Assembly: GCF_002954405.1 (NCBI RefSeq)
Contig: NZ_MQWC01000004.1
Coordinates: forward strand, 2,345,909 to 2,409,908
Length of the DNA: 64,000 bases
Direction: 5' to 3'
Origin: Salinibacter sp. 10B
Lineage (GTDB): Bacteria > Bacteroidota > Rhodothermia > Rhodothermales > Salinibacteraceae
Below the pieces are notes generated by a model. The model was given only the letters and a program-made list of their open reading frames with translations. It did no database searches and had not been told where the DNA came from. A program made the position numbers and the translations under genes. Below, one piece after another: positions 49,559 to 55,436 of this stretch (the stretch's first letter is position 1; each line of letters begins with the position of its first letter).

Positions 49559-49709
49559 GAACGGAAAGATTCTCAATTCGATAAGCCACTGGACGACACG
49601 GGGCAGAAGAATGCCACGCAATTTCGGCGGATATACGCAGGGCACGACGCCCCGTTCGGGCCGGTGGCGACGAATCCCGGCCGAGACTCGGGAAAACCAA
49701 AAGAAAAAA

Positions 49710-49806
49710 GGGCAAGCGACCCGCAGCGCGCCGCTGCGACCTCCTACCGCTGCTGCCTTCCGGCCCTGACGGGGTTCAGAGGGAGCTGGCCGTGCGGGAC
49801 TTGCCC
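49710..49806 (-). ncRNA. ffs: Signal recognition particle RNA (4.5S type)
   Basis: 97-nt minus-strand RNA closed by GGGCAAG/CTTGCCC ends. The universally conserved SRP domain IV core appears as GTCAGGGCCGGAAGGCAGCAGC (in the pieces GTCAGGGCCGGAAGG and CAGCAGC), including the GGAA tetraloop. The plus-strand A run at 49701-49709 becomes a T-tract just past the 3' end, which suits an intrinsic terminator. It pairs with Ffh to target membrane proteins. Confidence 0.95.
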
Positions 49807-49940
49807 TATTCGGTGCGAGGCAGTGCCTCGCGCAATTTTGGACTGTACTAAACCGAACCAATTTTTCGGAGGTTCCCCGAGAAGACGCCCATTTCGGTTT
49901 TTGCTCCGCCTTCACGCCACTGAGGGTAAGAGCCCGACAA

Positions 49941-51527
49941 TCAGCGTCCTCCCGATCCACGGCCCGCCAGCACAGACGATCCCTGCTCGAACGTGAGGGC
50001 TGCGGGTTGATCGGAGAGTCGGGCAAGCACAGTGCGGAGCTCAGGGGGCACGGAATTGTGGGACTTCAGAAATGCCGACACTTCGTCCCGGTTGGCCGAT
50101 TGGAGCCCCAGCAGGCGACGGGTGAGGGTGGGAAGGGCCTCGCGCATCCTCTCCGGGGCCACGGCGTAGGTCCCGGTCGCCTCCTCGTACGTAATGGCCC
50201 CGCGTTCCCGAAGGACATTGAACTGGATCAAGGCGGCGCGGCCCCGCACGCTGCTGGTGTCACAGCGGAGGGTGTGGAGGAGCGTAGCAAGCGTCGTCGC
50301 GTACGCCTCCATCGGCCCCTCGTCGCCCGCGCCGCCAGCAAGCACCGCCAGTGAGCGGCCCAGCGCGTCCACCGCTCCGACGGCCAGCGCAGAATCGGAG
50401 TCCCCATCAGGGCGCGTGGTTCGGGCCACCTCTTGGAACGTCGTCTGTGCAAACAGCGCTTCGGCCGTCACGTGCGACCGCTGCTCCACTGCGATTGCCG
50501 CGTCGGCCAGCGGCCGCAGGATTGAGTCGGCCCGGGCCTGCACAAGGTTCAAAAAGAGAATGCGGCGTTCCTCTGCACCAGGTGTGTCCCCGAGCCGAGC
50601 GAGGGTCAGCGGCTTCGGCCCGGCATTTGCTGCTCCGGCCGCGTACAGCACGTCGTACACTCCGAGGGACGGAATCGGATCAGGCAGCCTCGCTTCGCCC
50701 CCTCCCGGGAGTGACAGTTTGTTCCAAAGCGCCGGAACCTGTCCCACGAGCGCGTCCACACGCTCCTGTGCGTCCGAAGTGTGATGAAGGACAAGGGCCG
50801 CCGCCGAGGTCTTCACCCCAAGCAGGCGATCCTCTCCCGCCTCCACCGGACCTATGACAATGTCGAGGGCGGTGGGCGCCCCCGGCGGCTCCGTCGCGTA
50901 ATTGCCGCTCGTCAGCGCCTCGGCGCGCCGCTCTAAAAACGTCCGAAGGACCACCGACTCGGCGAGACGGGCTGCATCGCGCAGCTGGAACGCCGCCGTC
51001 GCCATCGGTTCGGCAAAGAAGCGGTGATACGGCAGCGCCGTGAGTGAGCCGTCGGGCAACCGCCGGACCATCGTGTATGGGTCGTCGATGCCTTCGGTGG
51101 AGGCCCCGACCTGCTCGAGTTCCTCCCGTGTCACGCTCGCAGGGTAGAAGTTGGCCCCGGGCGGCCGCGGTCCCACTCCGTCTACAAAGGGGTCAAAGTT
51201 GCTCAGTCGGCTCCACGGGCCGTAGTTGATTTCCACCAGACGCCGCCGCTGGGGAGGGCCGATCGTCTGGAGAAGCGAGTCTCGATTGCCGTACGCCTGC
51301 TCCCAGAAGATCACGTCCATCGACTGAGCCGCTTCGATCAGGTGCTGGGCTATTTCTGCCTGCGGACCGGAGAGAGACCGAAGATCGATGTCGAGAGAGA
51401 CGGTTGCATACGTCTGGAGAAGCGCGTCGGGGGACGACTGTGCATCAGAGGGAGTCTCGGGGGAAGGCGGGGACTGACAACCAGTCCAGAACAGAATAAA
51501 AAGCAGGAGGAGAGACGAACGAGACAT
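49941..51527 (-). CDS. DPP3-like (peptidase M49 family) lipoprotein lacking the zinc motif
   Basis: 528 residues, ATG 51527, lipobox FWTGC (Cys ~17), so an envelope lipoprotein. The M49-like protein signature is clear: SMDVIFWEQAYGNRDSLLQT, VEINYGPWSRLSNFDPFVDG, VGPRPPGANFYP, YAAGAANAGPKPLTLARLGD. In active members the metal motif HExxxH (family form HEISHG or close) comes after a VTxxxxF strand. Here that segment reads VTAEALFAQTTFQEVARTT: Gln and Arg replace the two zinc-binding His while the catalytic Glu remains. Peptidase activity is not expected. The next segment SSVRGRAALIQFNVLRERGA is family-typical. Family recall is from memory; alignment with characterised M49 enzymes would confirm. 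Upstream on the same strand is the SRP RNA. Confidence 0.75.
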   Translation of the reverse strand: MSRSSLLLLFILFWTGCQSPPSPETPSDAQSSPDALLQTYATVSLDIDLRSLSGPQAEIAQHLIEAAQSMDVIFWEQAYGNRDSLLQTIGPPQRRRLVEINYGPWSRLSNFDPFVDGVGPRPPGANFYPASVTREELEQVGASTEGIDDPYTMVRRLPDGSLTALPYHRFFAEPMATAAFQLRDAARLAESVVLRTFLERRAEALTSGNYATEPPGAPTALDIVIGPVEAGEDRLLGVKTSAAALVLHHTSDAQERVDALVGQVPALWNKLSLPGGGEARLPDPIPSLGVYDVLYAAGAANAGPKPLTLARLGDTPGAEERRILFLNLVQARADSILRPLADAAIAVEQRSHVTAEALFAQTTFQEVARTTRPDGDSDSALAVGAVDALGRSLAVLAGGAGDEGPMEAYATTLATLLHTLRCDTSSVRGRAALIQFNVLRERGAITYEEATGTYAVAPERMREALPTLTRRLLGLQSANRDEVSAFLKSHNSVPPELRTVLARLSDQPAALTFEQGSSVLAGRGSGGR

Positions 51528-51614: not shown

Positions 51615-52523
51615 TCAATCGTCTTCCAGGGAATCACGCTCCCGAGAGGAGTCCTTGCCTGATGTACGAAGCGATCGCTGGTACGCCTGCGGGGTGCGTC
51701 CCACCCGACGCCGAAAGAGGTCGATAAAGTGGCTGACGCTGCTGAAGCCGAGATCCAGACTCACGTCGGTGACCGTGCGGCCCGACTCGCGAAGCAGAGC
51801 CTTGGCATGTTCAATTCGCATGCGAGTAATGTACTGCAGGGGCGTGACCCCAAAGGTCGTCCGGAAATGCCGATAAAACGTCGAACGGCTCATACACGCC
51901 TGCTCGGCCAACTCGTCGACAGAAAACGGGCGGTGGAGATGGCGTCGCACGTGCCGAACAGCGGCGGCCAAGCCCGGCGGATTGAACGTAGGTTCATTTG
52001 CCTGAAGCAGCAGCGGCCGAGCGGTGGTCTGGAGGAGGTGAAGAAGAAGCTGCGTGACGTTGAGATCCAGAAGGTCGTCTCGGCGCGGATGCTCGTGCCC
52101 CGAAAGCAACGTGAGCGTCTGAAGACTCGCCTGCAGCAATGGGGAATTTTCGATGTGAGCGTGAGTCGCACCGATCGAGTCATCGCTCTCTGGATCTCCA
52201 TCGGCTGACAGTTGGCGCGCAAGGTATCCCCCCACCTCCGCACCGACCGCCAACCCAAGCACAGTGAACGAGGACGCGGGACGAATCAGAGAAAATGCGT
52301 GTCCGGAACGCACGACGAGGGAGACCCCCGGATGAATCGTCAACGGTGACTGATGCTCCAATTTGATGCCGACTTTTCCTTTCACGACGCCCCAGTAGAG
52401 TAGCGAATCGTGCCTCCCCTTGAGCCTGCGAAAGAGACGGGCGGATGAGTAAACCGACAACGAGCAGGCCCGTCGACGGGGGACCGGGAGACACTCGTCA
52501 TAGACACATTGGACGAGGGGCAT
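51615..52523 (-). CDS. AraC-family transcription regulator, divergent to aldehyde dehydrogenase
   Basis: 302 residues with a cupin-like sensor domain (~20-120) and two HTH motifs at the C-terminus (FSVDELAEQACMSRSTFYRH, FRTTFGVTPLQYITRMRIEH, VTDVSLDLGFSSVSHFIDLF, RRRVGRTPQAYQRS). It is divergent from the aldehyde dehydrogenase gene, 154 bases apart, so it probably regulates that promoter. A palindrome (GAAGCGCTTC, 52614-52623) lies in between. ATG 52523 by family start. Confidence 0.9.
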   Translation of the reverse strand: MPLVQCVYDECLPVPRRRACSLSVYSSARLFRRLKGRHDSLLYWGVVKGKVGIKLEHQSPLTIHPGVSLVVRSGHAFSLIRPASSFTVLGLAVGAEVGGYLARQLSADGDPESDDSIGATHAHIENSPLLQASLQTLTLLSGHEHPRRDDLLDLNVTQLLLHLLQTTARPLLLQANEPTFNPPGLAAAVRHVRRHLHRPFSVDELAEQACMSRSTFYRHFRTTFGVTPLQYITRMRIEHAKALLRESGRTVTDVSLDLGFSSVSHFIDLFRRRVGRTPQAYQRSLRTSGKDSSRERDSLEDD

Positions 52524-52677
52524 AACGGACGCATAGAGGAAAGAAAATCGACTGACGACGGCGGATTGACACGATCCCGATATCGTCTCGGACGAATTCG
52601 GGAGCACAAATTGGAAGCGCTTCGATACCTTCGACTCTCCCTATTCGTCAAAGTTCTCACCTCTTCAATCCAATGCC

Positions 52678-54213
52678 ATGATTTACGATCGCCCCATCCT
52701 CCAGGACACCTACGACAACTACATCGGCGGCACGTTCGTCGGTCCCGTCAATGGCGAGTATTTCGACAATCCGTCCCCCATCGACGGCGAAAATTACTGC
52801 CGTGTGGCCCGGTCGAACCACAAGGACGTGGAGGCGGCCCTCGACGCCGCGCACGAGGCCTCGGCAGCGTGGGGCCAGACATCGGCCACTGAACGCGCAA
52901 ACATCCTCAACAAGATTGCCGACATTACTGAGGAAAATCTGGAGTTCCTGGCCCTCGTCGACACCATCGACAACGGCAAGCCCATCCGCGAAACGCTAAA
53001 CGCCGACCTGCCGCTCGTGGTGGACCACTTCCGCTACTTTGCGGGCGTCATTCGGGCCGATGAGGGGTCCCTGTCGGAACTCGACCGGGACACGGTGGCC
53101 ATGCACGTGCACGAGCCGCTCGGCGTGGTCGGACAGATCATTCCGTGGAATTTCCCGCTTCTGATGGCAGCCTGGAAAATTGCCCCGGCGCTGGCGGCGG
53201 GCAACTGCACCGTCGTGAAGCCTGCCGAGCAGACGCCCGTCTCCATCATCGAGTGGATGAAGCTGGTTCACGAGGCCGACCTTCTGCCGGCCGGTGTGCT
53301 CAACATCGTACAGGGCTTCGGTCCGGAGGCCGGAAAGCCACTGGCCAAAAGCGATCGTATTGCGAAGGTGGCCTTCACCGGCGAAACCACGACCGGTCGC
53401 CTTGTAATGCAGTACGCCTCGGAGAACCTGACGCGGGTGACGATGGAGTTGGGCGGCAAGAGCCCGAACGTCTTCTTTGAGAGCGTGATGGACGCGGACG
53501 ACGAGTACTGGGACAAGACGCTGGAGGGCGCAGCCATGTTTGCCCTCAACCAGGGCGAGGTGTGCACCTGTCCATCTCGCATTCTGGTGCAAGAGTCGAT
53601 CGCGGAGGAATTTACCGAGGCCGTCGTCGACCGGGTGAAGCAGATCCGCGTCGGAAATCCCCTCGACACCGAGACGCAGGTCGGCGCGCAGGCGTCCAAC
53701 GACCAGTACGAGAAGATCAAAAACTACTTTGAGGTCGGCCGGCAAGAGGGTGCCGAGGTGCTCGTGGGCGGCAAAGTGGCGAAGGCAAAGGGCATGCCGG
53801 TACCGGCAGGCGGCGACGGTGAGCCCGCAAACAAGGGATACTATATCGAGCCCACCATCTTCCGCGGCCACAACCAGATGCGGGTCTTCCAGGAAGAGAT
53901 CTTTGGGCCAGTCACGAGCCTCACAACGTTCAAGGACGAGGACGAGGCCATTGAGATCTCAAACGACACGCTCTACGGCCTCGGGGCCGGGGTCTGGACG
54001 CGCGATGCACACCAGCTCTATCGCGTGCCCCGCGCCATCAAGGCGGGCCGCGTGTGGGTGAACTGCTACCACCTGTACCCGGCACATGCTGCCTTTGGGG
54101 GCTACAAGAAGAGCGGATTCGGTCGCGAGAATCACAAGATGATGCTCGACCACTACCGCCAGACAAAGAACATGCTCGTCAGCTACGACAAGGAGCCGAT
54201 GGGCTTTTTCTAA
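52678..54213 (+). CDS. NAD-dependent aldehyde dehydrogenase
   Basis: 511 residues of the ALDH superfamily, AldB/ExaC-like. [21 protein letters not shown] (NAD loop), [34 protein letters not shown], the catalytic Glu in [11 protein letters not shown], the catalytic Cys in [11 protein letters not shown] (~296), and the family tail [20 protein letters not shown]. It oxidises an aldehyde, probably acetaldehyde, to the acid. With the alcohol dehydrogenase 194 bases downstream and DUF779 it makes an alcohol/aldehyde oxidation set; the AraC regulator is divergent. Confidence 0.95.
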
Positions 54214-54407
54214 CCTCCTCTGCCGGGCATCGGGGCGCGCGCCCCCGCCCTTCTTCGACGGAATGGAGGACAGGCTGGCCGGGCCGCCTGTCCTCCTTCT
54301 ATTTCGCCCTGAATGCGGCGGCGCCCGTGGTCCTCGCCTCATCGCATCGAGCCTTGCTCAGAGACCCATCCTGTACATTTATTCCCTACCTGCCCCTCTA
54401 GAATACC

Positions 54408-55436
54408 ATGAAAGCTGCTGTCGTTCACGAATTCGGGACTCCCCTCTCTATCGAAGACATGGACACGCCTACCCCCGGCCCGAACGAGATCCTGGTCGAC
54501 GTGCAGGCCAGCGGCGTGTGCCACACCGACCTTCACGCCGCCGAGGGCGACTGGCCGGTCAAACCCAAGCTCCCCCTCATCCCGGGCCACGAAGGCGTCG
54601 GCTACGTGGCGGGCGTAGGGCGCAACGTGACCCACGTGAAGGAGGGCGACGCGGTGGGCGTGCCCTGGCTTTACAGCGCCTGCGGCATCTGCGAGCACTG
54701 CCGCGGCGGCTGGGAAACGCTCTGCCTCAAACAGGAAAACGCCGGCTACAGCGTCGACGGCGGGTACGCCGACTACGTCATTGCCGACCCGGACTACGTG
54801 GGCGTGCTGCCGGACAATCCGGACTTCACGGCGCTCGCGCCCATCCTCTGTGCCGGCGTCACGACCTACAAGGGCCTCAAAATGACGGACGTGCGCCCCG
54901 GCCAGTGGGTGCTCATCTCCGGCGTCGGCGGACTCGGGCACCTGGCCGTCCAGTACGCCCGGGCGATGGGCATGCAGGTGGCCGCTGTCGACATCGCCGA
55001 CGAGAAGTTGGAGTTGGCTGAAGATCTTGGCGCCGCGTTCACGGTCAACGCAAGCAAACAGGATCCAGGCACGGCCGTCAATGATGCAATTGGGGGCGTG
55101 CACGGAGCGCTCGTCACCGCCGTCTCGACGGCAGCCTTCCGCCAGGCCCTCGACACCCTGCGGCGCGGCGGCACCCTCGTCCTCAACGGCCTCCCACCCG
55201 GCGACTTCCCGCTGCCCATCTTCGACACGGTGCTCAACGGCATCACCATTCGCGGCTCCATCGTGGGCACGCGAAATGACCTGCAAGAATCCATCGACTT
55301 CGCGGCGGACGGGCAGGTAACAGCCCACGTCGAGTCGGTTGAACCCCTGGAGAACATCAATGACATCTTCGACCGGATGCGGGCGGGCACCATTGCCGGC
55401 CGCGTCGTCCTGGACCTGACCAACGGCGCGGTGTAG
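54408..55436 (+). CDS. Zinc-dependent alcohol dehydrogenase (AdhP type)
   Basis: 342 residues, medium-chain dehydrogenase fold. Catalytic zinc: Cys in [15 protein letters not shown], His in [10 protein letters not shown], Cys-155 region in [13 protein letters not shown]. Structural zinc: [15 protein letters not shown]. Rossmann loop [19 protein letters not shown], with Asp (AAVDI) for NAD preference. It converts primary alcohols to aldehydes and feeds the aldehyde dehydrogenase upstream. Confidence 0.95.

Follow-up and report, generated by a model that had tools for sequence, protein, structure and literature searches.

A putative M49 pseudopeptidase of Salinibacter with a lost zinc motif and inverted constraint between its lobes

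Introduction

The M49 (DPP III) family is widespread in bacteria, where its physiological role is poorly known. The closest described systems to the protein considered here are CaDPP III from Caldithrix abyssi (6eom) and CoDPP III from Corallococcus (5zum). In the parts of the published accounts drawn on here, the zinc motif of the short bacterial DPP III subgroup is the pentapeptide HEXXH (PMC5805324, PMC9820243), CaDPP III crystals contain a dipeptide lodged in the cleft (PMC5805324), and CoDPP III dimerises through its lower domain with an interface of 1416.9 square angstroms (PMC9820243). Pseudopeptidases as such are well known. No M49 pseudopeptidase was recognised in the open-access papers searched, and a text search of a 2024 review of metallopeptidase pseudoenzymes (PMC11266112) returned no mention of M49 or DPP.

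Here we describe a pseudo-M49 gene in a 64-kb window, the whole 64,000-nucleotide stretch of DNA that was analysed, from Salinibacter sp. 10B (genome G000), together with its ortholog (L002) in a second genome of the same genus (G008).

Results

The gene and its descent from M49

The ORF runs from an ATG at 51527 to a stop codon at 49941-49943, and the coordinates and strand given for it in the initial annotation are correct. A second possible start, an in-frame TTG, lies nine bases upstream of the ATG.

49941..51527, minus strand: pseudo-M49 gene for a protein of DPP III fold, with 528 codons before the stop, assigned by homology, AlphaFold model and structure match
51477..51527, minus strand: putative lipoprotein signal, residues 1-17, up to Cys17, read by eye

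The N-terminus carries a short hydrophobic stretch and Cys17, with an unusual Trp at -3, and the G008 ortholog has a Cys at the matching position. From this by-eye reading of the signal, the product is a putative lipoprotein.

A phmmer comparison with solved structures returned two matches, 5zum (CoDPP III; E 5.3e-44) and 6eom (CaDPP III; E 6.9e-42). The AlphaFold model of the protein, made with 34 aligned family members (mean pLDDT 82.6, pTM 0.83), has its best structure match in 6eom (Foldseek E 1.9e-30; VIA-align Z 41.2, rmsd 2.2, 486 residues aligned); the remaining DPP III structures come next, ahead of PolE. Pfam, searched at E values up to 10, gave no family for the protein, PF03571 included, and NCBIfam gave one match that falls far under its cut-off. 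The ortholog likewise has no PF03571 match, whereas both of the tested relatives with motifs intact in sequence (hereafter active-type, a label defined by motif alone) do match, indicating that sequence divergence is responsible. Because the reach of PF03571 is limited in this way, M49 descent rests on phmmer homology and on the predicted two-domain fold. Together with the family alignment, these results uphold the membership of M49 that the initial annotation had proposed: descent from the family is supported by the sequence matches, and a two-domain DPP III fold is predicted.

Loss of the canonical metal site

Three short segments of the protein depart from the motifs of the active enzymes:

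50421..50435, minus strand: QEVAR replacing HEVAH, residues 365-369; two zinc ligands lost, Glu kept
50367..50384, minus strand: AVGAVD replacing EEGKAD, residues 382-387; third zinc ligand lost
50241..50252, minus strand: SVRG replacing SAHG, residues 426-429; conserved His lost

QEVAR aligns with HEISH of CaDPP III, HELMH of CoDPP III and HEVAH of close relatives, and these alignments confirm that both histidines of the zinc motif are lost and the glutamate is kept, as had been claimed from the sequence at the outset. The accompanying claim that the family signature is otherwise kept fails, since EEGKAD has become AVGAVD, about half of the residues separating the two motifs are gone, LPNDE has become RLGDT and SAHG has become SVRG, the last change removing a conserved His that has a catalytic role in human DPP III. 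Protein length, also said to be kept, is roughly so. The ancestral motif had been given as HExxxH and needs correction to HEXXH, the pentapeptide found both in the accounts of this subgroup cited above (PMC5805324 and the part of PMC9820243 drawn on) and in our 106-row alignment; QEVAR therefore replaces HEVAH position for position. The ortholog reads RELVR at the zinc motif and DAGATA at the second motif, and the spacer between the two motifs is 12 residues in the G000 protein and 14 in L002, against 24-26 in 102 active-type rows.

The 106 aligned rows comprise the G000 protein, L002, 102 close relatives and two rows (L027 and L028) of one distant M49 protein. Both motifs (two His plus Glu; EExK) are intact in 104 of them, L027 and L028 being counted there and outside the 102, and the only rows with neither motif are the G000 protein and L002. 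Two contig-edge fragments (L025, L026) were left out of the motif counts. The relatives include the best 80 of 583, and degenerate forms among the remainder could have escaped. Within the order, both motifs are present in 22 of 22 active-type rows (L003-L024) and in 25 of 28 further loci, the other three being two fragments that do not span both motifs and one altered sequence. This survey covered 52 of the 55 order genomes with a match (24 + 28); G031, G072 and G109 gave fragments only.

The altered sequence (L157, from G106) reads REVAH, a substitution of one zinc His, but it retains EEGKAD and 17 of the 23 contact positions described below and otherwise resembles the active-type proteins. 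A single residue separates it from the usual form. The difference may be real, possibly marking the beginning of a loss, or may stem from faulty assembly; it weakens the claim that all relatives are intact. As a separate observation, G038 carries beside its ordinary M49 protein a second, distant M49-like protein (L027/L028), with HEVGH and EEMKSD.

We also looked for an alternative His-rich metal site. The pseudo-M49 protein has seven His, five of them common to the G008 ortholog (residues 62, 168, 352, 418 and 490), with no two of these near each other in sequence, and there is no His at the old zinc site in either copy. A site assembled by folding from His that lie far apart in sequence is conceivable. 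The alignments support loss of the canonical metal site, and zinc binding in the DPP III manner is not expected.

Distribution, paralogues and neighbourhood

The pseudo-M49 gene is present in two of 13 genus genomes (G000 and G008) and missing from the other 11, where it is therefore dispensable. Across the order Rhodothermales some match was obtained in 55 of 114 genomes; the G008 ortholog is 65% identical and the next best match 43%. In stretches taken from ten of the 11 other genus genomes (all but G002), some of them short or ending at contig ends, tblastn at E values up to 10 detected no remnant, the best match having an E of 2.6. In a tree, the two pseudo-M49 rows form a fully supported group whose stem is very long; they have no supported place among the other rows, and the tree carries a warning on their amino-acid composition.

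This distribution bears on whether the protein regulates an active M49 paralogue through mixed dimers. Regulation is a common mode of pseudoenzymes (PMC11266112, in the portion available), and CoDPP III, described as a dimer in the part of PMC9820243 drawn on, offers a route to such pairing. PF03571, however, finds no active M49 copy in G000 or in G008 (a 95% complete draft), yet matches in G016, G022 and G038. A search with the pseudo-M49 protein returned only itself in G000, and in G008 only the ortholog and a contig-edge fragment, which over 97 residues shares 99% identity with that ortholog. Because no active copy was found in either genome by these searches, the regulatory reading is highly improbable; PF03571 misses the pseudo-M49 protein itself, and a second strongly diverged copy in G000 or G008 could escape it likewise.

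The locus common to G000 and G008 has Hsp20 upstream and, downstream, an SRP RNA, a YajC-like gene, RibBA and DnaA (YajC and DnaA named by eye). No conserved operon partner of the pseudo-M49 gene was found at the two loci, the AraC gene just upstream in G000 not being there in G008. Between Hsp20 and pseudo-M49, positions 51615-55436 of G000 hold an AraC regulator, an aldehyde dehydrogenase and an alcohol dehydrogenase that are absent at the G008 locus, as if this set were a cassette gained or lost. The small SRP RNA (49706-49813, minus strand; Rfam RF04183, 92 bits) lies between pseudo-M49 and the YajC-like gene, and the stretch around it, 49684-49917, is 92% identical in G008. Elsewhere in the window, 25610-25739 matches DNA in G008 and G009 and 62819-62946 matches G009, perhaps as a dispersed repeat.

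Retention under selection

The G000 and G008 copies differ with a dS of 0.91 and a dN/dS of 0.25; the frame is open in both, and both indels are whole codons. Their dS is near that of the neighbouring genes RibBA (dS 0.86, dN/dS 0.05) and DnaA (dS 0.88, dN/dS 0.09), indicating that the copies parted with the genomes, and their dN/dS is several times that of either neighbour. A simple neutral simulation, run at divergences of 0.30, 0.45 and 0.526, kept 0 of 300 frames open each time, and amino-acid identity in it was at most 51%, compared with the 66% observed over 506 aligned codons. Both copies share the spacer shortening and the replacements Y231G, T306P, N313G and H369R, which places the catalytic loss before the G000/G008 split. 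The measured constraint therefore acted after that loss. The pseudo-M49 gene is not a pseudogene: it has been under purifying selection since catalysis was lost, as observed in one pair.

Inverted constraint between the lobes

Using the domain borders of CoDPP III, taken from the part of PMC9820243 drawn on and mapped onto the pseudo-M49 protein, we compared constraint between its lobes. One segment stands out:

50883..51431, minus strand: residues 33-215, forming the N-terminal portion of the lower domain; under the strongest constraint when G000 and G008 are compared

Residues 33-215 have a pN of 0.102 in the pseudo-M49 pair and residues 326-509 one of 0.242, which gives a ratio of 0.42 (bootstrap 0.28-0.62). 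The same ratio ranges from 0.98 to 1.94, with a median of 1.40, in 49 row-disjoint active-type pairs, where L013 and L053, the same gene counted twice among the 102 rows, each stand in one pair. For the whole lower versus the whole upper domain the ratio is 0.50 in the pseudo pair versus 0.79-1.57 in active-type pairs, and for the N half versus the C half it is 0.43, compared with 1.14-2.35 in a further 19 active-type pairs that reuse rows. The zinc domain is thus nearly always the slower part in active-type pairs, whereas in the pseudo pair it is the faster part. Because the pseudo form is found in only two sequences, this estimate of constraint is a single comparison. The pS of the pseudo pair is 0.586 in the N-lobe versus 0.452 in the zinc domain; since pS is not reduced in the N-lobe, the inversion is not a local mutation-rate effect.

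The alignment columns give a similar picture. Both copies keep 25 of the 31 N-half columns whose conservation across the 102 active-type rows reaches 95% or more, but only 38 of the 120 such columns in the C half (Fisher p 1e-6). Only 3 of the 31 N-half columns have changed alike in both copies, indicating that the N-lobe stays canonical and is not newly made. Its constraint could reflect fold stability alone.

Such a pattern might be left by slow decay, with the gene on its way out and the constraint stemming from folding or from the toxicity of misfolded protein instead of from function. The absence of the gene from 11 of 13 genus genomes, a dN/dS well above that of the neighbour genes and the relaxed zinc domain would all fit. 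We regard slow decay as rather unlikely, because the frame is open in both species at dS 0.91 with indels in whole codons, because no neutral run with an open frame was seen among the 300 at any divergence, and because the dN/dS of the N-lobe is ~0.11.

The least constrained regions include that of the old active site, which is hard to reconcile with a new enzyme in which this site would have been remodelled to catalyse a different reaction, following the example of PolE, an Fe/pterin oxidase of DPP III fold. In the fold comparison PolE structures rank directly behind DPP III, and the part of PMC12614342 consulted describes this repurposing of the fold; PolE, however, keeps HE/DxxH...E, and none of the five His common to both pseudo-M49 copies is at the old site. 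A new enzyme is accordingly a very remote prospect.

Peptide-contact residues

Two further segments lie in the part of the protein that would hold a peptide:

50835..50843, minus strand: EAG replacing ExY, residues 229-231; Glu240 equivalent kept, Tyr242 equivalent lost
50583..50600, minus strand: ARLGDT replacing NLPNDE, residues 310-315; peptide N-terminus anchors lost

For the contact positions, 23 of the CaDPP III residues that PMC5805324 names as metal or peptide contacts were used and mapped via the phmmer alignment, whose numbering agrees with that of the paper at the zinc motif. The G000 protein keeps three of the 23 (Glu229, Leu307 and Glu366) and L002 two, compared with 16-18 in the 102 active-type rows, indicating that canonical peptide holding is lost too. 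Neither copy retains either of the two Asn that anchor the substrate N-terminus, nor the Tyr, the Lys or the Arg, and CaDPP III residues that hold S1/S2 side chains are likewise replaced. One of the three CaDPP III anchors (Glu240, Asn321 and Asn324) is kept in G000 and none in G008, whose ortholog has Asn at the place of Glu229. The former anchoring loop, residues 312-317, has a pLDDT under 50 in the AlphaFold model.

The initial annotation had suggested that peptides are bound without being cut, which would make the protein a pseudopeptidase whose cleft captures peptides as a sensor, carrier or protector. The predicted two-domain fold with a cleft, the retention of Glu229 and Glu366 in the G000 protein and the dipeptide held by crystalline CaDPP III are consistent with this suggestion. 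In its canonical form it is nonetheless not borne out: few contacts are kept in either copy, the anchoring loop is predicted with low confidence, and the constraint lies outside the cleft, the zinc domain being the fast-changing part and Glu229 itself being replaced in G008. We consider capture of peptides by the cleft unlikely; binding of another ligand is conceivable.

Discussion

The explanation that we favour, and consider probable, is that the protein is a pseudopeptidase of the envelope, kept because its lower domain performs a non-catalytic function, possibly one common to the active enzymes. The ancestor would have been a short bacterial (HEXXH) M49 enzyme whose active site was lost before the G000/G008 split. 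Its product would now be an envelope protein, probably lipid-anchored to judge from the N-terminal signal, with a DPP III fold but without zinc binding or peptide holding of the DPP III type. It may have been retained since for its lower domain, chiefly residues 33-215, which is close in sequence to that of active enzymes. Because the metal site and most of the contacts are lost and yet the N-lobe is guarded, the protein probably has a job that does not involve cutting. The likeliest mechanism would be that of a non-catalytic scaffold or adaptor, which might form a dimer or serve as a dock for another envelope protein, through a surface that active M49 proteins would also carry. Among five interface residues of CoDPP III, one is identical (A138/A130) and four are replaced (K70 by Q68, D90 by Q87, K169 by R156 and Q185 by A172), so that dimerisation of the pseudo-M49 protein is something we infer.

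More tentatively, and with some doubt, short bacterial M49 proteins in general might have two functions: the zinc domain would cleave dipeptides, and the lower domain would have a task of its own that involves no catalysis. Only the second would keep the gene here. If this is true, the lower-domain task becomes testable in isolation. The inverted constraint separates catalysis from other tasks and suggests that the lower domain may have a role outside catalysis. For work on DPP III, the pseudo-M49 protein also offers a naturally catalysis-dead point of reference.

Comparison with known systems

The loss of catalytic residues in a retained protein is shared with the metallopeptidase pseudoenzymes M1 Tma108, M12 ADAMs and M14 AEBP1/CPXM, which belong to families other than M49 (PMC11266112, in the portion available). 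Use of the DPP III fold for something other than peptide cleavage is described for PolE/DUF6421 in the part of PMC12614342 consulted, but PolE is an enzyme whose metal site works, whereas the pseudo-M49 protein is without HE/DxxH...E. Its relationship to CaDPP III (6eom) and CoDPP III (5zum) is seen in the sequence, a similar length, the predicted two-domain fold and a putative signal peptide; unlike them it has no zinc ligands and lacks most contacts, its spacer is about half as long, and peptidase activity is not expected. Within the order, the active-type M49 proteins L003-L024 and L154-L180 are alike in lower-domain sequence, with ~35-43% identity and, in most of the rows inspected, a signal with a Cys. 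They differ in keeping both motifs, at 22/22 and 25/28 loci respectively, and in a zinc domain that is nearly always the slower part. Finally, human DPP3, an active peptidase whose KEAP1-binding motif we do not claim for the Salinibacter protein, is through its binding of KEAP1 an earlier example of non-catalytic action in the M49 family.
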